A stretch of 34,823 bases of DNA, from IMG/VR virus record IMGVR_UViG_3300003332_000137, positions 1 to 34,823 of that record; one strand, given 5' to 3'. The notes under the pieces were generated by a model that saw nothing but the letters and a program-made list of their open reading frames with translations, did not search any database and had not been told where the DNA came from. Source of the stretch: a virus. Positions 23,423 to 34,163 of the stretch are shown piece after piece (the first letter of the stretch is position 1; every line of letters begins with the position of its first letter). Position numbers and translations under genes: made by a program.

Positions 23423-24290
23423 TGCGATTACCTCTCTGACTGTTACTGATGTTTGATAATTGACTACTGCCTTCCTGCTGAACAATTGCGGACTCTCTGA
23501 TTATCGACTCCACAAAAGTTTTGTAATACATGGGCGTGTCTGGCACCCGCCCTAACACAACCTCTGCCGCCTCCATTGCATCGATAACCGTTTTCACCTC
23601 AACCCCGAGATCGATCCACGACTTAAACAGCGGTATCGACTTAACCGTTGAAACCTGATGCAACTGAAAGCCCCGATACCGGATAAAAAACTGAGACCAC
23701 TCTTGAGGCATACGTGGTTGCGCGATCTGGTTTGAATCAACCAACACGTATAACTCTGTAGTTGATACTGGTGAAGGTATAAGTACAGTGGTATCAGATT
23801 CCCCGTTCTCTGGGGGTTCATACCCTCCACCGTCTTGGCGTTCTTCTAGGGGCTCAAGCTCCGCAACATCAGCCACAACAACAATGTCGCTGGGGGCTGT
23901 GCTGGGGGCTGTGCTCTGGGGGCTCACTGGGGGTTCATATTTTGGACGGATCTCTCCTATAGTCGCCAAAGGGAGAAAAAATTGAGGCTTATCAAACCGG
24001 CTTCTCTTCGGTAGCGCCTTAATTAATCCCACCCTAACCAGCTCCTGCCACCGCGCCCGGATATAATCATCACTAATGTTGGCCACCCGCCTTGCAGGCA
24101 TCTTGCTTTTCGCATCTGGGATGAACTCAATGACCCGCTTACAGACACCCTTGGTCGTCTCCACGATGCCGGTACGATAATTCATGTGCCGGCGAAGACC
24201 TCGCAGATAGATATCCTTCGCCTCGCTCGTGAGGCCCTGCAAGCGATCATCTTCCTCGCCGTTCCACTGGGTGATGATGCCGTCTGCCAC
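23301..24290 (-). CDS. Replication initiator O-like protein
   Basis: A 329-residue protein. The N-terminus (about 10-105) is a winged-helix region (LTSEAKDIYLRGLRRHM, then ISDDYIRARWQELVRVGLIK). A Pro/Ser/Thr linker follows at about 115-180 (YEPPVSPQSTAPSTAPSD). The C-terminal domain (LPQEWSQ-like start, then FKSWIDLGVEVKTVIDAM and MYYKTFVESII) resembles DnaT/O-type partner-binding domains. It uses a GTG start with a TAGTG overlap. It precedes the P-like loader, as in lambda. The linker DNA contains clustered iterons. Confidence 0.72.
   Translation of the reverse strand: MADGIITQWNGEEDDRLQGLTSEAKDIYLRGLRRHMNYRTGIVETTKGVCKRVIEFIPDAKSKMPARRVANISDDYIRARWQELVRVGLIKALPKRSRFDKPQFFLPLATIGEIRPKYEPPVSPQSTAPSTAPSDIVVVADVAELEPLEERQDGGGYEPPENGESDTTVLIPSPVSTTELYVLVDSNQIAQPRMPQEWSQFFIRYRGFQLHQVSTVKSIPLFKSWIDLGVEVKTVIDAMEAAEVVLGRVPDTPMYYKTFVESIIRESAIVQQEGSSQLSNISNSQRGNRNATHKRSGKNTPVSRAIESERQCEEYYRNNSDDENIKPHA
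23810..23940. other. Candidate replication origin: CTGGGGG iterons in the O-like gene
   Basis: CTGGGGG followed by C/T and T occurs at 23810, 23890, 23902, 23916 and 23927, with a degenerate copy (CTAGGGGCT) at 23846. Four copies are packed with 11-14-base spacing. The outer two copies also share TTCATA. The cluster sits in the linker of the initiator gene, exactly where lambda ori lies within O, and a more A/T-rich stretch follows. Initiator binding is inferred. Confidence 0.55.
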
Positions 24291-25132
24291 TACGCCGCAT
24301 CCTCCATATCAAACCGAGCCAGCAGCTCCGTCACAGGCTTTCTGCTGCTCCCCTTTGCTGAGATGCTACGGCTCGCCTTAAAGTAATTGATATGCGCACC
24401 AGCGGCCTTGTAGAGATTGCGGGTGTGAGTTGTCGAATGATTGGAAATCACCACCGGCACACCGCGATCACGACAACGAGTGGCGCTGACCGTTAAGCGA
24501 TGATGCTGCTTCGAATCAAAACCACCGGCACTGTAGGCCGTAAAGCTCGATGATACTGAGAGCGGCACATAAGGAGGATCACAATAGACCACATCCCCAG
24601 CCCTGGTCAGAATCATCGTGTAGTGGAAATCCTCATGGACCAGTCGCGCACGTTGCAACTTCTCAGCAAACGCCCGCATCTCATCCTCTGGGAAATAGAC
24701 CGATTTATACTTACCGTGTGGCACATTAAAGCCACCAGAAGCGTTATAGCGACACAGGCCGTTATAACAATGCCGGTTAAGCCACACAAAGTACGCCGCT
24801 CGCTTAAAAGAATCTGACGATCCCAGGACACCATTCAGCGTATTAAACTCATCCCTTATCGCGTAGTAATTCTCTGGCGTGTTAGCCTTGAGGCCGAACA
24901 ACCCCTTCACATAATCGACAAACCAATCACCCTCATTTTTCAGAATGATGTAGAGATCGATCAGATCTTTATTATTATCTGCAAGCAGATACTCGCCGTA
25001 GTCCGTGCCCATAAACACAGCGCCAGATCCAACGAACGGCTCCACCAGGCGATCACCCTTTGGCAACTTATTGATAATGCGCGGTAGCAATTTACGTTTG
25101 CCGCCCGGCCATTTTAGGAAGGGTTTAGTCAT
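24290..25132 (-). CDS. DNA adenine methyltransferase (Dam-like, D12 class)
   Basis: A 280-residue N6-adenine methyltransferase. FLKWPGGKRKLLP (residues 5-17) and VEPFVGSGAVF (30-40) bind SAM, and DPPY at 185-188 is the catalytic motif IV. The target-recognition region lies between. Dam-type enzymes often modify GATC, but the target cannot be read here. The ATG at 25132 overlaps the upstream methyltransferase stop as TGATG; a start at 25168 would give 12 extra residues. Likely protects phage DNA from restriction. Confidence 0.88.
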   Translation of the reverse strand: MTKPFLKWPGGKRKLLPRIINKLPKGDRLVEPFVGSGAVFMGTDYGEYLLADNNKDLIDLYIILKNEGDWFVDYVKGLFGLKANTPENYYAIRDEFNTLNGVLGSSDSFKRAAYFVWLNRHCYNGLCRYNASGGFNVPHGKYKSVYFPEDEMRAFAEKLQRARLVHEDFHYTMILTRAGDVVYCDPPYVPLSVSSSFTAYSAGGFDSKQHHRLTVSATRCRDRGVPVVISNHSTTHTRNLYKAAGAHINYFKASRSISAKGSSRKPVTELLARFDMEDAA

Positions 25133-25974
25133 CAGAACATTTCCCTTTGCGGTTTCTCGTCCGCACATCTGGCATTAACCCAAACCACCTCTTCACGAAG
25201 CCCAGTGCCCCTACCAGAAGAGATGCGGGCACTCTTCGAGTACCGATCCCAGTTTTTCAACATGCCCTCATATAATTCGGATGGATACCCACTTAACACC
25301 ACTGCACCCTCTACGGCATTAAGCGTTTCCAGCAGCTCAATATGTTGATCATCAGTCATCTCGTGACGATAGACACCGCTATTACTTCTCATCACTCTGG
25401 TGTCATGTACATAAGGAGGATCGACAAAGTGCAGAGTGTCAGGCCCATCGTTCAATTTAATAACGTCGACTGCAGGGCGGTTTTCTATAATCACCCCTCG
25501 CAGGCGTTCCCCAAATGTTGCGATCTTCTCTGGGTACCGGGACCATATATGTGCTGCCAACCCATAATCTCGCTTGGAATCAGATCTAAATCCGGTGCTC
25601 ATTCCAACAGCACCACCCGATCCAAACCCCGCCTCCGCTCTAAATAAAGTACGCCTAGCCTGTTCCACCGGATCATCACAATTCACATAAGACTCACTAA
25701 ACTCATCACGAGAAAAAGGTGTCAATGAGCAGGACTCAATAAGCTGCGCACTTAGCACAGGATCTCGAAGTACTTTAAAAACATTAACAATTTCACCATC
25801 GAGATCGTTATAGACCTCAGCATAACTCCGCTCTTTCTGCATCAGCACTCCAGCTGCTCCACCGAACGGCTCAACATACGTTTGGTGAGCCGGAAAGAAT
25901 GAGATGATCCAGGGAGCCAATCTAAACTTGGCCCCGTGGTAGCGCATGACTGGTGAGGTGATCGGTACGTTCAC
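25132..25974 (-). CDS. Second DNA adenine methyltransferase (D12 class)
   Basis: A 280-residue protein with SPVMRYHGAKFRLAPWII (residues 7-24), VEPFGGAAGVLM (34-45) and DPPY at 185-188. It is clearly divergent from its neighbour: the residues around motif I and the recognition domain differ, so a second target is likely. It uses GTG, with GGAGAG six bases upstream; an ATG nine codons later would lose part of the SAM motif. It is translationally coupled to the Dam-like gene. Confidence 0.85.
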   Translation of the reverse strand: MNVPITSPVMRYHGAKFRLAPWIISFFPAHQTYVEPFGGAAGVLMQKERSYAEVYNDLDGEIVNVFKVLRDPVLSAQLIESCSLTPFSRDEFSESYVNCDDPVEQARRTLFRAEAGFGSGGAVGMSTGFRSDSKRDYGLAAHIWSRYPEKIATFGERLRGVIIENRPAVDVIKLNDGPDTLHFVDPPYVHDTRVMRSNSGVYRHEMTDDQHIELLETLNAVEGAVVLSGYPSELYEGMLKNWDRYSKSARISSGRGTGLREEVVWVNARCADEKPQREMF

Positions 25975-28746: not shown

Positions 28747-28775
28747 ACTCTAATACCTTTTGGGTATCAGGTCAA
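28747..28775 (-). promoter_or_regulatory. Early left promoter (pR-like) for cro
   Basis: On the minus strand TTGACC (28775-28770) and TAGAGT (28752-28747) are 17 bases apart. The whole spacer is filled by operator O1 (28753-28767), so repressor binding should block polymerase directly. The start is expected near 28740, next to the cro ATG at 28739. Confidence 0.7.
28753..28767. promoter_or_regulatory. Operator O1
   Basis: A 15-bp palindrome ATACC-TTTTG-GGTAT. The same ATACC-N5-GGTAT frame recurs at 31832-31846 beside the other early promoter. Confidence 0.75.
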
Positions 28776-28785
28776 CAGCTATTTA

Positions 28786-28800
28786 CAACCTTTTGGGTTA
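28786..28800. promoter_or_regulatory. Operator O2
   Basis: CAACC-TTTTG-GGTTA, centred 33 bp from O1, about three helical turns. A near copy (CAACC-TTTTT-GGTAA) lies at 31885-31899. Confidence 0.68.
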
Positions 28801-28813: not shown

Positions 28814-28826
28814 CCCAAAACGGTTG
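28814..28826. promoter_or_regulatory. Degenerate operator O3
   Basis: On the minus strand CAACCGTTTTGGG resembles O2 with one extra base between the half-sites. It lies just before the repressor start, where it could allow self-repression. Confidence 0.4.
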
Positions 28827-28835
28827 AATACGCTC

Positions 28836-29363
28836 ATGGTTACAAACAAAGAAACACGCCTTTGGAACGCTCGATATTTAGTAGCTCAGGCCGGTACGAT
28901 CGCCGCATTTTCCAATGCGATCGGTAAGGCTCAGGCTCAGGTTGGGCAGTTCGTTGGCGTTAATCCAGTCAAAGGAATTGGCAGCAATATCGCCAGGCAA
29001 ATTGAATCTGCATTTGATAAAACTGAGGGGTGGCTAGATACCCCCCACCCCCTAGGTTGGAGTAAAATTGAAAAGCCAGAGTGGAAAGAACAGCAGCTTG
29101 AGCTGATGGCACGCATAGAAAATGATCGTGGCGAACTCAAGGATGACTATATCAAAGAGGCGTTTGAGGGATATCTCCAGGGAGAGGGTCAGCTAACGGC
29201 CCCTGATCATGCGGGTAACGCTAAAGTGAATTCAAGCCTAAATACCAATGAAGATCCCGAAGGGGCCAAGCTATTAGACGAGATTGCTCTGCTTTATTAC
29301 TCAAAAAAAATAAACAAAAGCGACCTCCAGGCCGCTCTGCATTTGTTCTTATCTAAGAAATAA
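28836..29363 (+). CDS. CI-like repressor without a peptidase domain
   Basis: A 175-residue protein with an N-terminal helix-turn-helix region at about 5-60 (ARYLVAQAGTIAAFSNAIGK, then VGQFVGVNPVKGIGSNIARQI, then GWLDTPH), as in XRE/CI proteins. The C-terminal 110 residues are helical and charged, ending LHLFLSKK. No Ser-Lys S24/LexA peptidase pattern is visible, so RecA-induced self-cleavage is unlikely. I chose the ATG at 28836; a TTG at 28824 lies inside O3. No clear ribosome site precedes it. Its 3' end overlaps a convergent gene by 15 bases. Confidence 0.68.
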   Translation: MVTNKETRLWNARYLVAQAGTIAAFSNAIGKAQAQVGQFVGVNPVKGIGSNIARQIESAFDKTEGWLDTPHPLGWSKIEKPEWKEQQLELMARIENDRGELKDDYIKEAFEGYLQGEGQLTAPDHAGNAKVNSSLNTNEDPEGAKLLDEIALLYYSKKINKSDLQAALHLFLSKK

Positions 29364-29546
29364 ATTGCAGGCGATCACCGCCTCATAAAAATACATACCA
29401 AGTTCCCAGGGCAGTATCACCGCCAGCTCTCCTTTTTGATAAACAACAAAATCACCCTCAACCGGTACCCGTCTCCGATGAGCAAAAACACGATCCCCCG
29501 CCTTACCGAGCCCAGCGATATCTTTACTTAAAGTTAAATCTAACAT
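29349..29546 (-). CDS. Small hypothetical protein
   Basis: A 65-residue protein: MLDLTLSKDIAGLGKAGDRV, then AHRRRVPVEGDFVVYQKGELAVIL and a hydrophobic tail with LGMYFYEAV. The ATG at 29546 has GGAT just upstream; an ATG at 29585 has none. It is convergent with the repressor gene, overlapping it by 15 bases. The 212-base stretch to its right holds a terminator and no other gene. No family recognised. Confidence 0.45.
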   Translation of the reverse strand: MLDLTLSKDIAGLGKAGDRVFAHRRRVPVEGDFVVYQKGELAVILPWELGMYFYEAVIACNLFLR

Positions 29547-29717
29547 TCTTATCCATTCCCATTGTCTTGCCCATTTCCTTATCATGACGACAGTGGCTCA
29601 TTGTGACGCCAAGTAACCGTCGATCCGTATGGATATAAGCAAGAGTTTGACCTATTTTTAGTCTGGAATTATGTAGATAAGATGGAGATAAAATGGAGAT
29701 CTCTGAATTACAGGCAC

Positions 29718-29744
29718 AAAAAAACCCGCCGAAGCGGGCTTTTT
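29718..29744. terminator. Bidirectional terminator after the HEPN gene
   Basis: CCCGC-CGAA-GCGGG (29725-29738) is flanked by seven A on the left and five T on the right. On the minus strand the loop is TTCG and seven T follow, an ideal terminator 15 bases beyond the HEPN gene stop. Confidence 0.85.
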
Positions 29745-29758
29745 ATCAGGTTAATTGG

Positions 29759-30160
29759 TCAGGCTGCATTTTCCTGCATCAACTGCTCTGCTCCATCAAC
29801 AATTTTTTTAGTTTGAGTTAACGCATTTTGGGCGGTCACCTCAGTGAATTCTTTTTCAAGCTGGTAGTCTGCAGAAGTCCTATGTGTCCGAACAATTCTT
29901 AAGAGTACACCAAGCCTTTTTACCTGCTTATTTGTATCCCTATGGTACTGGCCGCATGACTCAAGGCTGCCAATTAATTTCTCATGCATTCCGCCATCAA
30001 TATTGGCGTATATAGGTATGCCCAATCTCTCCCTTAGCATCTGACACGCATGAAACGCCCCATAATAGGCTCGGCTGGCTGCATTCCGATAACCTGTCTC
30101 GGTGTTTGTTTTAAGCATATCTTCTGCCGAGACCACAAAGTCTCTATGACCAATTGTCAT
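29759..30160 (-). CDS. HEPN-domain protein (putative RNase)
   Basis: A 133-residue protein of the HEPN/UPF0332 type. It has an N-terminal helix (HRDFVVSAEDMLKTNTETGY) with the typical RNAASRAYYGAFHACQML, and in the last helices RIVRTH at residues 88-93, followed by RTSADYQLE. RIVRTH fits the HEPN active site R-phi-xxx-H. Such domains cut RNA in toxin-antitoxin and defence systems. The ATG overlaps the partner stop as ATGA, and a strong terminator follows, so the two genes form a closed unit. RNase activity is inferred. Confidence 0.7.
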   Translation of the reverse strand: MTIGHRDFVVSAEDMLKTNTETGYRNAASRAYYGAFHACQMLRERLGIPIYANIDGGMHEKLIGSLESCGQYHRDTNKQVKRLGVLLRIVRTHRTSADYQLEKEFTEVTAQNALTQTKKIVDGAEQLMQENAA

Positions 30161-30921
30161 ACGGCACCCTGATGGGTCGCAGTGGCGAAGCCGATTGTCA
30201 GAACCTGACTAACCGCAGGAACCAAATCTTGATCGATGAGTGAATCGGCCAGCTCAGAATTCATTTCGGCAATTACATCAGACCCCGCATCAACCTGAAA
30301 AATAATCGCTGGATTTTCACCATCGTAAGAATGCACAGAAGTGCTCTCCTCCAAAAGATGGTGAGCGATGTGGGTTTTATGAGCCGCCAAGAATGCTTGA
30401 GAAACCTGCTCCCCAGTCACTCCGAACTTATCCATTCGGCTCATCACTGTGCCGAGCCAATTTGCCCTGTCGTGGCCTTTTTGAGGTGACAGCTTGTTCC
30501 AGTATTCGTTTGCGATCATAGCCTCAGTGATATCGCCAGCCTCTGTGCAACTATCAAGATAAAGATCGGCCAACGCTAGGTTGCCAGGGAACTTCTCAAC
30601 AGCCTCTTTCAGCAAAGAAACCGACTTGTCATACGTTCCCATTTTTCCGCATGAAACCGCATACGCCAAATAGGCCCATGACGAGCCCCACCCGCTTTTT
30701 TCAAGTGCAATTTGGTGCTGTTTGTGAGCCTCTTCAATATCCATAGTTAAAGCAGCGATCATGCCGAGAAGCCCGTGCCCCATTTCTGGATCATCTTTTA
30801 TCACGACTGAAGCGCCCGCCTTTAGTCCCTGCATAACAAACCGATTGCTTGTATCAGCATTAGTGATGTTATTCAGGCGATCGATTAATTTGTCGGCTTT
30901 CTTTGCTGGTTGTGGAAACAC
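30157..30921 (-). CDS. TPR-like partner of the HEPN gene
   Basis: A 254-residue helical protein. Its middle has tetratricopeptide-like pairs of helices (EEAHKQHQIALEKSGWGSSW, AYLAYAVSCGKMGTYDKSVS, then LLKEAVEKFPGNLALADLYL). The C-terminal third (about 195-250) is different and has beta-like segments (NPAIIFQVDAGSDVI). It uses GTG, with GAGGG six bases upstream. An A/T-rich imperfect palindrome lies about 30 bases before the start and could be a self-operator. As the first gene of the pair it may sense a trigger or restrain the RNase. The function is unknown. Confidence 0.6.
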   Translation of the reverse strand: MFPQPAKKADKLIDRLNNITNADTSNRFVMQGLKAGASVVIKDDPEMGHGLLGMIAALTMDIEEAHKQHQIALEKSGWGSSWAYLAYAVSCGKMGTYDKSVSLLKEAVEKFPGNLALADLYLDSCTEAGDITEAMIANEYWNKLSPQKGHDRANWLGTVMSRMDKFGVTGEQVSQAFLAAHKTHIAHHLLEESTSVHSYDGENPAIIFQVDAGSDVIAEMNSELADSLIDQDLVPAVSQVLTIGFATATHQGAV

Positions 30922-31011
30922 TGTAGTCCCTCAGAAAATCGTGATGCGAATATACACTATATATCGTCTTGTTGATATGGGTCTTGAATGGCGACCGTTC
31001 AAGCATAAACC

Positions 31012-31281
31012 CTATATCGTCCGGCCCTCAGCACCACACTGTGGACACACCATCACGGTCTTAGTTCCGCGCCCCACAGATCCGATAATGATCGCCACCA
31101 CCATCACAATAATGCCGACCATCACATTAGCCAGCATCACCAAGGCCCCCACCAGGAACATCAGCACACTAAAGATGCCCGCTATAGACACCGAGCTTTT
31201 CTTCTCTTTAGTAACCAGTTGAACATTGCATTTTTCGCAGGCCACAACCGATGGCGCCGCTTTCTCGTTATTATCATCCAT
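31012..31281 (-). CDS. Zinc-ribbon membrane protein
   Basis: An 89-residue protein with CxxC near the N-terminus (VACEKCNVQL), two adjoining membrane spans (SIAGIFSVLMFLVGALVMLA and MVGIIVMVVAIIIGSVG) and a second CxxC (VCPQCGAE) near the end. The four Cys are brought together on the same side of the membrane, forming a split zinc ribbon. Its place among lysogeny cargo suggests a membrane role such as superinfection exclusion, but nothing specific is recognised. Confidence 0.6.
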   Translation of the reverse strand: MDDNNEKAAPSVVACEKCNVQLVTKEKKSSVSIAGIFSVLMFLVGALVMLANVMVGIIVMVVAIIIGSVGRGTKTVMVCPQCGAEGRTI

Positions 31282-31318: not shown

Positions 31319-31738
31319 CTACTCGGCAAGAGCGCACCACCCCGCCCTCTTGCCGCCACTATAAGCCCTGCCCAGCCCCAGCTCAATCATCACCGGTGCG
31401 ATGGGCTCACCATCAACCAAAACATCGGCCACCAGGCGGAAGTACTTGCCTCTCTCTATATTCACCAGCTCAACCGAACCAGCAGAACGCAGAGCATTAT
31501 TCAAGAAGTCCCGCGCCCTGATAGCCAATTGCTTCTCGCCTGGGCACTTCCCTTTTATCTCTGGGGTGTCGATTCCCCTAACCCTTATCGGCATATCTGC
31601 TCCCACAATGGCGGGCCAACCCTCAATATTTACCCTGATTGTATCGCCATCATAAACCTTAACGATCTCAATCCTATTGGGGGTATGGGCGCATGACGTG
31701 AAAAGAATAATTGAGACAAAAAAAGTTAAAGCTCGCAC
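31319..31738 (-). CDS. Secreted thermonuclease-like (SNase) protein
   Basis: A staphylococcal nuclease-like domain: IVKVYDGDTIRVNIEG, then MPIRVRGIDTPEIKGKCPGEKQLAIRARDFL, then RLVADVLVDG and a final GLGRAYSGG. The active-site pattern DGDT, R in VRGIDTPE and the later basic position are present. Starting at GTG 31738 gives a signal sequence (VRALTFFVSIILFTSC) whose Cys may be lipidated, although the -3 residue is Phe. A GTG at 31813 would add 25 residues. Neither start has a good ribosome site. It may degrade incoming DNA at the cell surface; this is inference. Confidence 0.72.
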   Translation of the reverse strand: MRALTFFVSIILFTSCAHTPNRIEIVKVYDGDTIRVNIEGWPAIVGADMPIRVRGIDTPEIKGKCPGEKQLAIRARDFLNNALRSAGSVELVNIERGKYFRLVADVLVDGEPIAPVMIELGLGRAYSGGKRAGWCALAE

Positions 31739-31831
31739 GCCAAACCAACAAATCACCTGATTAATTAACGGGCATTGCCACGCTCCAAATATATAGAAAC
31801 CAAACTTTATCACAATTAATTATTTGAACTA

Positions 31832-31846
31832 ATACCGTAAAGGTAT
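31832..31846. promoter_or_regulatory. Right-arm operator, O1-type
   Basis: ATACC-GTAAA-GGTAT has the same half-sites and spacing as O1. Its last base is the first base of the -35 of the right-arm promoter. Confidence 0.7.
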
Positions 31847-31873
31847 TGACGAGACAAGATAAGCCTGTATTAT
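31846..31873 (+). promoter_or_regulatory. Right-arm early promoter (pL-like)
   Basis: TTGACG (31846-31851), 16 bases, TATTAT (31868-31873). Start expected near 31880. It is bracketed by two operator copies, so repressor should silence it in the lysogen. It drives the plus-strand early genes. Confidence 0.75.
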
Positions 31874-31884
31874 CTAATGCAACA

Positions 31885-31899
31885 CAACCTTTTTGGTAA
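31885..31899. promoter_or_regulatory. Right-arm operator, O2-type
   Basis: CAACC-TTTTT-GGTAA closely matches O2 (CAACC-TTTTG-GGTTA). It lies just downstream of the predicted start site. Confidence 0.65.
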
Positions 31900-31922: not shown

Positions 31923-32489
31923 ATGACAGCTCCCACAGGAACAGCATCAAGAGCACACAACCTCCTTCACCGGAAAGCCGGAGCGCTCTCTGCTGTAGAA
32001 ATTGGCATATCTCTCGACATTACCACTCACCAGGCAGGGCTGGCCATGCAGTGCCTTAAACGCAAAAAGGCAGTCCAAAAAATCAGTCACGGCAAAAACA
32101 CCAAATGGGAAAGCATCAAAGAGCCAGAGGGAAAATTCATTTACAACCCAGACCTATACCCACCAACTCATCATCCAGACGGACGGCCGATGAGCAACTT
32201 GGAACGATGTGCCGCAGTCATCAACCGCGAACAACGCATCATCAACAACCAAGAGATGAGCGAGCTTCTCGGTATCGCCAAAAACACCGCCACCCAAGCG
32301 CTCATCTGGGCATGGAAAGCCGGGCTCATTGCTCGCACCTGCACTACCAAAAAGTGCGACTACCACCCAATAGTCGATGAAGATAAAAAAGACGCCGTCG
32401 ACATCAACAGCCTGATGAAAGCCAACATGAACGCCCCTCACCACCAGGGGCTTATCGAATATCAATACTTCACAGGGAGCGCAGCATGA
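31923..32489 (+). CDS. Winged-helix-like early protein
   Basis: A 188-residue protein, first gene from the right-arm promoter, with GAGG eight bases upstream. It seems to hold two DNA-binding helical domains: residues 8-62 (GALSAVEIGISLDITTHQAG, then LKRKKAVQKI) and 92-142 (IINNQEMSELLGIAKNTATQ, then WKAGLIART). The linker has a Pro-rich stretch. In lambda this place is held by antiterminator N, but no Arg-rich N motif is visible. A regulator role is likely; the family is not recognised. Confidence 0.6.
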   Translation: MTAPTGTASRAHNLLHRKAGALSAVEIGISLDITTHQAGLAMQCLKRKKAVQKISHGKNTKWESIKEPEGKFIYNPDLYPPTHHPDGRPMSNLERCAAVINREQRIINNQEMSELLGIAKNTATQALIWAWKAGLIARTCTTKKCDYHPIVDEDKKDAVDINSLMKANMNAPHHQGLIEYQYFTGSAA

Positions 32490-32995: not shown

Positions 32996-33276
32996 CCAAC
33001 GCAATATACATTAACACCACCCCCGGTGCGCAATGCCTGTTCGCCCCGCCAGAGGCGACAGAAGACTACGCCGGTTGGTTACAGCTACGGCAAAAAGCCA
33101 CCCAGTTCAAAGACGGTATCCAGACCTGTCACTACGGCCTATCGCAAAAGATAAACCAGATCCTGCAGGCCTCAAAAAGCAACGGTGTCCATGTATTTGC
33201 TATCGGAACCTATGCCGCCCAAGCCTCACAGTTTCTTGAGGCGCTTGGCGTGCCGAGTGTGGAGGTGTTGGGATGA
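32989..33276 (+). CDS. Hypothetical early protein
   Basis: A 95-residue alpha/beta protein: LTNAIYINTTPGAQCLFAPP, a helical middle, and a Rossmann-like end (VHVFAIGTYAAQASQFLEAL, then GVPSVEVLG). I prefer the ATG at 32989, close behind GGAAAA; an ATG at 32971 has no site. The stop overlaps the methyltransferase start as ATGA. No family recognised. Confidence 0.55.
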   Translation: MLTNAIYINTTPGAQCLFAPPEATEDYAGWLQLRQKATQFKDGIQTCHYGLSQKINQILQASKSNGVHVFAIGTYAAQASQFLEALGVPSVEVLG

Positions 33277-34163
33277 GCATTACCGTCAACAGCTACTTCT
33301 CAGGTGCTGGCCTGATGGATATCGGACTCATCGAAGCCGGCATTGAAGTCGCCCAGGCATTCGAGCTCGATGCAGACGCTTGCAAAACCTACCGCCACAA
33401 CCTTGGCGACCACATGACCCAGTGCGACATTGCTGATGAGCTGGTCCTTAACCAAGAAGACTGCGACGGCATGGTGTTCACCTACCCCTGCACCAAATAC
33501 AGCCGCATCGCAGATATTCACGGTACCCGTACAGGTGATGAGCTGTTCCTGCATGCGCTCCGCCACCTGGCAATCGCTCGCCCTGAGTTCTACGTGGTTG
33601 AAAACGTCCCAGGCATGAGGGCTTTCCCCATCGTGATGGAGGCCATGACCAAGATGCCCGACTACTACATTCAAACCTTCTGCCCTATCAAGGCAGATCA
33701 CTGGCTACCCCAGCGCAGAGACCGCCTAATCATCATCGGCACCAAGCGGCCATTTGCGATACGCCCACCAGAGAACACCAAGCCGATCTCCCTGGCAGAG
33801 ATCTTAGAGACTGATCCTGAGATCACCCTACCCAGCGCCATCAAGGCCCGCATGAATGGTGAGTATCGAGACCAGCCAATCATCTCAGACCCAGAGCGCG
33901 GCGATATTGCCCCCACCTGCGTGGCCCACTACGCCAAAGACAAAAGCACCCGACTGGTTAAAGACAAGAGGTTCCCAATGGGTGTGCGCCCCTACTCAGT
34001 GCGCGAGTTCGCGCGGCTGCAGGGCGTTCCCGATAGCTTCACCTTCCCCGTATCCAATACCGCCGCTTATCGTCAGATCGGCAATGGCGTGGCCGTGAAT
34101 GTGGGGCGATGGATTGGGGGCGAGATGAATAGGTATATGACAACAGCGAGGAGTGCGGCATGA
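33273..34163 (+). CDS. DNA cytosine-C5 methyltransferase
   Basis: A 296-residue enzyme with motif I (YFSGAGLMDIG, residues 8-18), motif IV Pro-Cys at 72-73 (TYPCTKYS; Cys is the nucleophile), motif VI ENV at 110-112, motif VIII QRRDR at 147-151 and motif X (IGNGVAVNVG). The target-recognition region, about 155-250, is short. No restriction enzyme is next to it, so it is probably a protective phage methyltransferase. ATGA overlaps both neighbours. Confidence 0.9.
   Translation: MSITVNSYFSGAGLMDIGLIEAGIEVAQAFELDADACKTYRHNLGDHMTQCDIADELVLNQEDCDGMVFTYPCTKYSRIADIHGTRTGDELFLHALRHLAIARPEFYVVENVPGMRAFPIVMEAMTKMPDYYIQTFCPIKADHWLPQRRDRLIIIGTKRPFAIRPPENTKPISLAEILETDPEITLPSAIKARMNGEYRDQPIISDPERGDIAPTCVAHYAKDKSTRLVKDKRFPMGVRPYSVREFARLQGVPDSFTFPVSNTAAYRQIGNGVAVNVGRWIGGEMNRYMTTARSAA

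Follow-up and report, generated by a model that had tools for sequence, protein, structure and literature searches.

Gene Layout of the Pair

The window (the whole 34,823-nt stretch analyzed here, IMG/VR virus record IMGVR_UViG_3300003332_000137) contains two overlapping leftward genes, the first encoding a protein with tetratricopeptide repeat (TPR)-like helices (hereafter, the partner) and the second a small HEPN-like protein. The features of this locus are as follows:

30929..30932, minus strand: GAGG, Shine-Dalgarno-like, 7 nt upstream of the partner GTG (30921), from the sequence
30157..30921, minus strand: partner gene, 254 aa, GTG start, encoding a TPR array (residues ~5-166) and a CT domain (residues ~170-247)
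30181..30414, minus strand: DNA of the partner's CT domain (residues 170-247), delimited by the secondary structure of the model
30157..30160, minus strand: ATGA, in which the partner stop and the HEPN start overlap, from the sequence
29759..30160, minus strand: HEPN gene, 133 aa, ATG start, UPF0332/PF05168-like
29864..29881, minus strand: codons R94-T-S-A-D98-Y99 of the HEPN gene, the conserved R-x3-D-Y signature
29714..29741, minus strand: intrinsic terminator closing the partner-HEPN unit, from the sequence and its folding energy

An earlier note on this DNA had described the two open reading frames with these coordinates, start codons and lengths, together with the ATGA overlap, and all of these were recovered, as were the motifs SRAYYGAFHACQ and RIVRTH that it had pointed out in the 133-aa protein. 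The overlap likely couples translation of the two genes. Downstream of the HEPN gene, the terminator AAGCCCGCTTCGGCGGGTTTTTTT lies 17 nt past the stop codon and consists of an eight-pair stem (-13.4 kcal/mol) followed by a run of seven T; it is the strong terminator that had been described, and it supports the view of the pair as a self-contained, closed transcription unit.

Genomic Context and Mobility

On either side of the pair is a cluster of an operator-like site, ACCTTTTNGGTA, which occurs five times in the window compared to 0.34 expected. The clusters, at 28755/28788 (28755-28799) and 31833/31887 (31833-31898), flank a repressor block, while the fifth copy (8457) is inside the tape measure gene. 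The 31833/31887 cluster surrounds the promoter-like sequence of a rightward gene at 31923. Between the clusters, in addition to the pair, are the likely repressor and three other leftward genes:

28824-29363: likely repressor (phrog_12107)
29349-29585, minus strand: further leftward gene in the repressor block
31012-31281, minus strand: 89-aa LITAF-like zinc-ribbon protein (Pfam PF10601 above cut-off)
31319-31813, minus strand: 164-aa staphylococcal-nuclease-like protein

The last two of these genes and the pair possibly form one leftward operon. Phage lambda carries its rex genes between its two operators, and by analogy, expression of the pair in the lysogen is plausible. The location beside the immunity region thus stands as first described, and it fits the suggestion of lysogen-expressed cargo.

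Elsewhere in the window, we noted three methyltransferase genes, which is many for a 35-kb phage:

24290-25974, minus strand: neighboring DNA methyltransferase genes, two in number, each with a match to phrog_56
33273-34163, plus strand: third methyltransferase, near the right end (phrog_116)

Homologous pairs are found in phages of Klebsiella, E. coli, Pseudomonas, Acinetobacter, Vibrio and Yersinia, as well as on plasmids, and their surroundings differ widely. The pair adjoins the tape measure gene, either before or after it, in three loci (L002, L007 and L082), and lies between baseplate and spike genes in two E. coli prophages (L072 and L073); in others it sits beside a replication gene (L005), in the early region (L006), or near the genome end beside a gene that appears repressor-like by eye (L004). 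Three further copies (L009-L011) are on mobilizable or conjugative plasmids. Judged by these positions at unlike sites in phages, on plasmids and in prophages, the pair is mobile, and its place among tail genes in several phages means that it might be expressed late there, a point against the function proposed below.

In the Yersinia phage YP3 (PV092592.1; L003, L074), the HEPN gene appeared at first to be an orphan, a reading that was discarded given that the partner is present elsewhere in the record, ~28 kb away. Next to the YP3 partner are the usual E. coli prophage neighbors of the pair, and with the HEPN gene so far off, the deposited sequence is likely misassembled or rearranged.

Fold and Family of the HEPN Protein

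The AlphaFold2 model of the 133-aa protein, computed with an alignment of homologues, is a four-helix HEPN fold with a pLDDT of 95.5. Its best structural match is 2hsb (Z 16.0, rmsd 2.5, 116/126 residues aligned), followed among other HEPN structures by 2q00 (Z 13.9), 1wol (Z 12.3) and the HepT of the MntA-HepT complex (Z 9.6). HEPN structures score above unrelated helical proteins against this model, and a Foldseek search likewise placed HEPN proteins on top. By its modeled fold, then, the protein is a member of the HEPN superfamily, as had been proposed from the sequence alone.

Profile comparisons are weaker for the single protein than for its family. Pfam gave only PF05168 for the window HEPN, with no other HEPN model, and at 20.8 bits this match is just under the cut-off of 22; PF05168 matches 11/40 family members at E <= 0.01 (best 4.5e-7). 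Against the PDB, the family profile retrieved 9xbd (3e-12), 9xbc (5e-11) and 2hsb (2.1e-6). Among the PHROGs, the window HEPN matches phrog_5176 (3.5e-29), a family of unknown function, and neither window protein matched any PADLOC model.

Conserved Residues of the HEPN Protein

RIVRTH fits the R-x4-H pattern in the window sequence, and R88 and H93 had been put forward from it as the catalytic pair, but neither is conserved among homologues: position 88 is arginine in 10/53 and 19/90 of them, and H93 is not conserved, which rules this pair out by the earlier note's own test. A conserved canonical R-x4-6-H is absent altogether, with 12 of 90 homologues matching the pattern at non-conserved positions. 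Without it, catalysis by the HEPN protein is not assured, and a non-catalytic HEPN is possible; this is the chief weak point of the mechanism proposed below.

What is conserved across the 90 homologues, whose overall identity to the window HEPN is ~23-44%, is a different set of residues, namely E21 together with the invariant or nearly invariant R25, S29, R30, Y32, Y33, H59, R94, D98 and Y99. The signature R-x3-[DE]-[YF] is present in 88/90 homologues and Y99 in all 90, and R94-x3-D98-Y99 occupies the place of R-x4-H-x-Y in HEPN-MNT toxins. The signature is also seen in 2hsb and in PDB 9xbd, and most of it is common to MNT-paired relatives. Three homologues (L093, L096 and L108) carry a long C-terminal tail, and in these R-x3-E-Y replaces R-x3-D-Y.

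The tyrosine of R-x4-H-x-Y is where HEPN-MNT toxins receive AMP from the MNT protein, and for a Legionella HEPN toxin the R/H residues were reported to be non-catalytic, with another site proposed (PMC11586414); this latter finding makes any argument from motif to activity a weak one. The entry 9xbc has the sequence of 9xbd with F at the conserved tyrosine, so its depositors evidently studied that residue. Given that Y99 is strictly kept even where there is no MNT, the pattern suggests that the tyrosine has a role of its own in the HEPN protein, apart from AMPylation.

TPR Array and CT Domain of the Partner

The partner was modeled in the same manner (pLDDT 93.2). Residues 5-166 form paired helices with Z scores of ~12-14 against TPR structures, and the partner family profile matches consensus TPR structures; Pfam gave TPR_14 for the single sequence, below threshold. 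The TPR fold suggested for the 254-residue protein is thereby confirmed by model and structure matches, although the description of it simply as a TPR protein had overlooked a C-terminal domain. In the model, residues 170-247 follow the order helix-strand-strand-helix-strand, an alpha-beta-beta-alpha-beta domain that we refer to as CT.

Two good structural matches to the full-length partner were found among predicted phage proteins, both of unknown function. None of its listed structural matches is an MNT protein, a search that says little on the CT domain. The GSX10DXD motif of MNT proteins is not in the window partner, and a loose regular-expression match to it was seen only in the partners of L064 and L065.

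Conservation of the Pair

Homologues were collected from annotated phages and plasmids, GTDB genomes, IMG/VR contigs and E. coli prophages. Viral contigs scanned with the single window proteins gave no match; the GTDB and IMG/VR searches used a close alignment of four sequences, a first, broader alignment having been too diverse. After thinning at 75% identity, 53 HEPN sequences remained. With the HEPN profile at E <= 1e-12, the family was found in 6/369 sampled genomes in the class of Yersinia pekkanenii, itself included, and at E <= 1e-8 in 23/398 sampled genomes in its phylum, some of these with other partner types.

Nearly all HEPN homologues are preceded by a gene of ~245-275 aa. The two genes overlap in 32/46 homologous pairs and are at most 40 nt apart in the remainder. 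As the homologous partners share only 9-24% identity with the window partner, their homology was tested with leave-cluster-out profiles, from each of which the tested gene's own cluster was withheld. Across 48 loci in phages, plasmids and chromosomes, the partner was the top-ranked open frame of its locus in every one (48/48), 47 of these matches having E < 1e-3. The CT domain by itself came first at 45 of the 48 loci. The window partner itself was first of 227 open frames at E = 2.9e-32. Five loci had been left out of this count beforehand, namely L003 (the apparent YP3 orphan), the two Gloeothece loci (L012 and L013), L034, where the partner frame is broken or partial, and L037. That the two genes should be conserved together was a condition the earlier note had set on its own proposal, and across the 48 loci their order and close coupling are maintained.

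Among close relatives, finite, non-zero dN/dS values range over 0.04-0.19 for the HEPN gene and 0.05-0.20 for the partner, indicating that both genes are under purifying selection. The phrog_5176 match, the leave-cluster-out value of 2.9e-32 and these low ratios together argue that the pair is more than a chance neighborhood. Evolutionary distances of HEPN and partner show a weak but significant correlation (Spearman 0.25, Mantel p 0.001). Compared to mononucleotide shuffles, similar terminators downstream of the HEPN gene are in excess, in 21 of 46 homologous loci where 2.2 are expected, and promoter enrichment 5' of the pair is weak (12/47 at P <= 0.1 vs 4.7 expected).

Partner Types Upstream of HEPN

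To tally the partner types, genomes were sampled by the HEPN profile alone; two of the samplings shared most of their genomes, so that the later of these contributed little. The upstream gene was a TPR-CT partner in 23 sampled loci, two of which (L075 and L115) are in already known genomes, and an MNT gene in one (L080). In five (L078, L079, L111, L112 and L113) it encoded CT alone, as a protein of ~100 aa with a CT profile E of 1e-4 to 3e-9 and no TPR signal; four of the five are from the order sampled around the L079 genome. The upstream gene of L099 is TPR-like below threshold; contig ends truncate L102 and L114, and L110 has no separate score. When the CT-only proteins were compared, profile against profile, with the CT domain of TPR-CT partners, hhalign returned E = 8.3e-9 with a probability of 96%. 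Since a ~100-aa CT gene lacking TPRs takes the upstream place at these five loci, the CT domain appears to be the essential part of the partner in pairing.

The remaining partners are less readily placed. Three sampled loci (L105-L107) have a small upstream protein of no assigned type; their HEPN proteins are more distant, and the ~100-aa partners carry a D-x-x-GD-like signature and an apparently CT-like secondary-structure order. Their comparison with CT (hhalign E = 5e-4, probability 30%) is suggestive only of a relationship. On the Gloeothece plasmids (L012 and L013), a 119-aa partner gene overlaps the HEPN gene upstream; its secondary-structure order is alike by eye, to which hhalign lent no support (E 0.1-0.4), and the protein is possibly a further partner type.

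Relatives of 9xbd on cyanobacterial plasmids have an MNT gene upstream with a 4-nt overlap, in the same order as the window pair, and the MNT-paired HEPN proteins form a branch separate from all other HEPN proteins in the tree (99/99). One such MNT-HEPN pair, on a Synechocystis plasmid (L084, 1111-1491), has its HEPN gene overlapping the BREX gene pglZ. The slot upstream of this HEPN class can thus hold MNT, CT or TPR-CT, and the simplest reading of the series is that CT is a restrainer in MNT's place, with the TPR array as an added sensor.

Comparison with Known Systems

The nearest known architecture is HEPN-MNT (HepT-MntA, type VII toxin-antitoxin), with which the window pair shares two overlapping genes with the partner first and HEPN second, the HEPN fold, the conserved tyrosine (Y99 in the window) and a mobile distribution. 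The two differ in that the window partner is TPR plus CT and lacks GSX10DXD, and in that the window HEPN has R-x3-D-Y where HEPN-MNT toxins have R-x4-H-x-Y. With no MNT in the pair, membership of HEPN-MNT was rejected; there would be no AMPylation step, and the HEPN-MNT mechanism is not transferable. The UPF0332/PF05168 proteins AF0298 (2hsb) and 9xbd/9xbc share the fold along with S-x-AYY, H and R-x3-DY; however, MNT is the partner in the 9xbd relatives examined, whereas the window family pairs with TPR-CT or CT.

Two other HEPN systems invite comparison. Tha, a HEPN defense system of an S. aureus prophage, is a single 301-aa protein with R265NSIMH270 and is triggered by a protein of the incoming phage (PMC11087260). 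It resembles the window pair in being a prophage-borne HEPN, and its trigger follows the logic that we propose for the pair, but the window has two genes, a TPR-CT partner and no conserved R-x4-H. Identity with Tha was dismissed, as the pair consists of two genes without a conserved R-N-x3-H motif. The HEPN LA2681 family is fused to TPR or in an operon with TPR and is listed with a conserved catalytic motif (Anantharaman et al. 2013, PMC3710099). The association with TPR is shared; the listed catalytic motif is a difference, and of the Pfam HEPN models the window HEPN matched PF05168 alone, weakly. No LA2681 Pfam match was reported for the window HEPN or family members, though the model may be absent from the library.

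Within PADLOC, HEPN_IX matches 10/40 HEPN family members (best 5.5e-9) and PDC-M05B, also a HEPN model, matches 2/40 at ~2e-4. The window proteins differ from these systems in matching neither; PDC-M05A matches MNT proteins and not the TPR-CT partner, which has no PADLOC model. A literature search found no description of the pair, most subscription papers and preprints lying outside its coverage. Within the literature covered, the pair would represent a HEPN two-gene kind with a partner not previously described, and its recurrence is suggestive of a toxin-and-restrainer or anti-phage module not yet described.

Proposed Function and Alternative Readings

Building on the two modeled folds and on the gene order, overlap, terminator, pair conservation and partner series obtained by computation, we infer a mechanism in which the partner binds and restrains HEPN, an RNase released by some trigger, with expression in the lysogen and a role in defense. 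The pair would work in toxin-antitoxin-like or abortive-infection fashion, built like HEPN-MNT but with CT or TPR-CT in the antitoxin's place, a reading to which we give an even chance. In the lysogen, the pair would be made steadily, with the CT domain of the upstream gene's TPR protein keeping HEPN inactive. The HEPN effector, translationally coupled to the partner, is probably an RNase acting as a dimer, with an active-site cleft that would be formed by R94-x3-D98-Y99 together with R25, R30 and H59. The TPR array probably senses a protein of the invader, or is the target of its attack; interference with the TPR protein by a second phage would free HEPN, and with RNA cleaved, growth would stop.

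The HEPN protein may instead be a binding scaffold that cleaves no RNA, its stable complex with the partner altering host or phage biology, for example through superinfection exclusion by protein binding or through host take-over. The lack of a conserved R-x4-6-H in the family speaks for such a role, as does the non-catalytic R/H pair of the Legionella toxin (PMC11586414). Against it, R25, R30, H59, R94, D98 and Y99 remain nearly invariant at ~23-44% identity, which looks like an active site, and most of the signature recurs in MNT-paired relatives and 2hsb, so that we consider a scaffold unlikely. A plain addiction module, stabilizing a prophage or plasmid with no action on other phages, would agree with the toxin-antitoxin-like gene order and overlap and with the copies on small and conjugative plasmids. 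Yet the TPR array is large and very divergent (partners 9-24% identical), as a fast-evolving sensor would be, and exceeds what an antitoxin needs, given that CT-only forms exist; moreover, lysogenic conversion genes typically occupy such a site, between the operators of a phage immunity block. Addiction as the sole function is thus rather improbable.

The neighboring tape measure, baseplate or spike genes in L002, L007, L072, L073 and L082 could also point to virion or tail assembly, with a TPR chaperone and its helper. This is very improbable, and a tail-assembly role was ruled out because the pair occupies such varied genomic sites and occurs on plasmids: other phages carry the pair in early, immunity or replication regions, the window pair is far from the tail genes, and the pair often has its own terminator, a pattern of morons inserted into late operons.

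The preferred reading, a restrained HEPN toxin or abortive-infection effector, can be extended to a widespread defense or toxin-antitoxin system in which a new CT antitoxin domain, alone or TPR-fused, replaces MNT, AMPylation is exchanged for restraint by binding and protein sensing, and the invariant tyrosine (90/90) has a role of its own; we hold this extension tentatively, at somewhat under an even chance. The HEPN-MNT architecture is among the commonest two-gene modules of prokaryotes, and if the extension is true, it would gain a second class of restrainer, one that forms a modular series from the bare restrainer domain (CT) to the sensor-bearing TPR-CT. It would also offer a concrete test of the role of the conserved HEPN tyrosine where there is no AMPylating enzyme, and would account for recurrent 'hypothetical protein' cargo pairs in phages and on plasmids.
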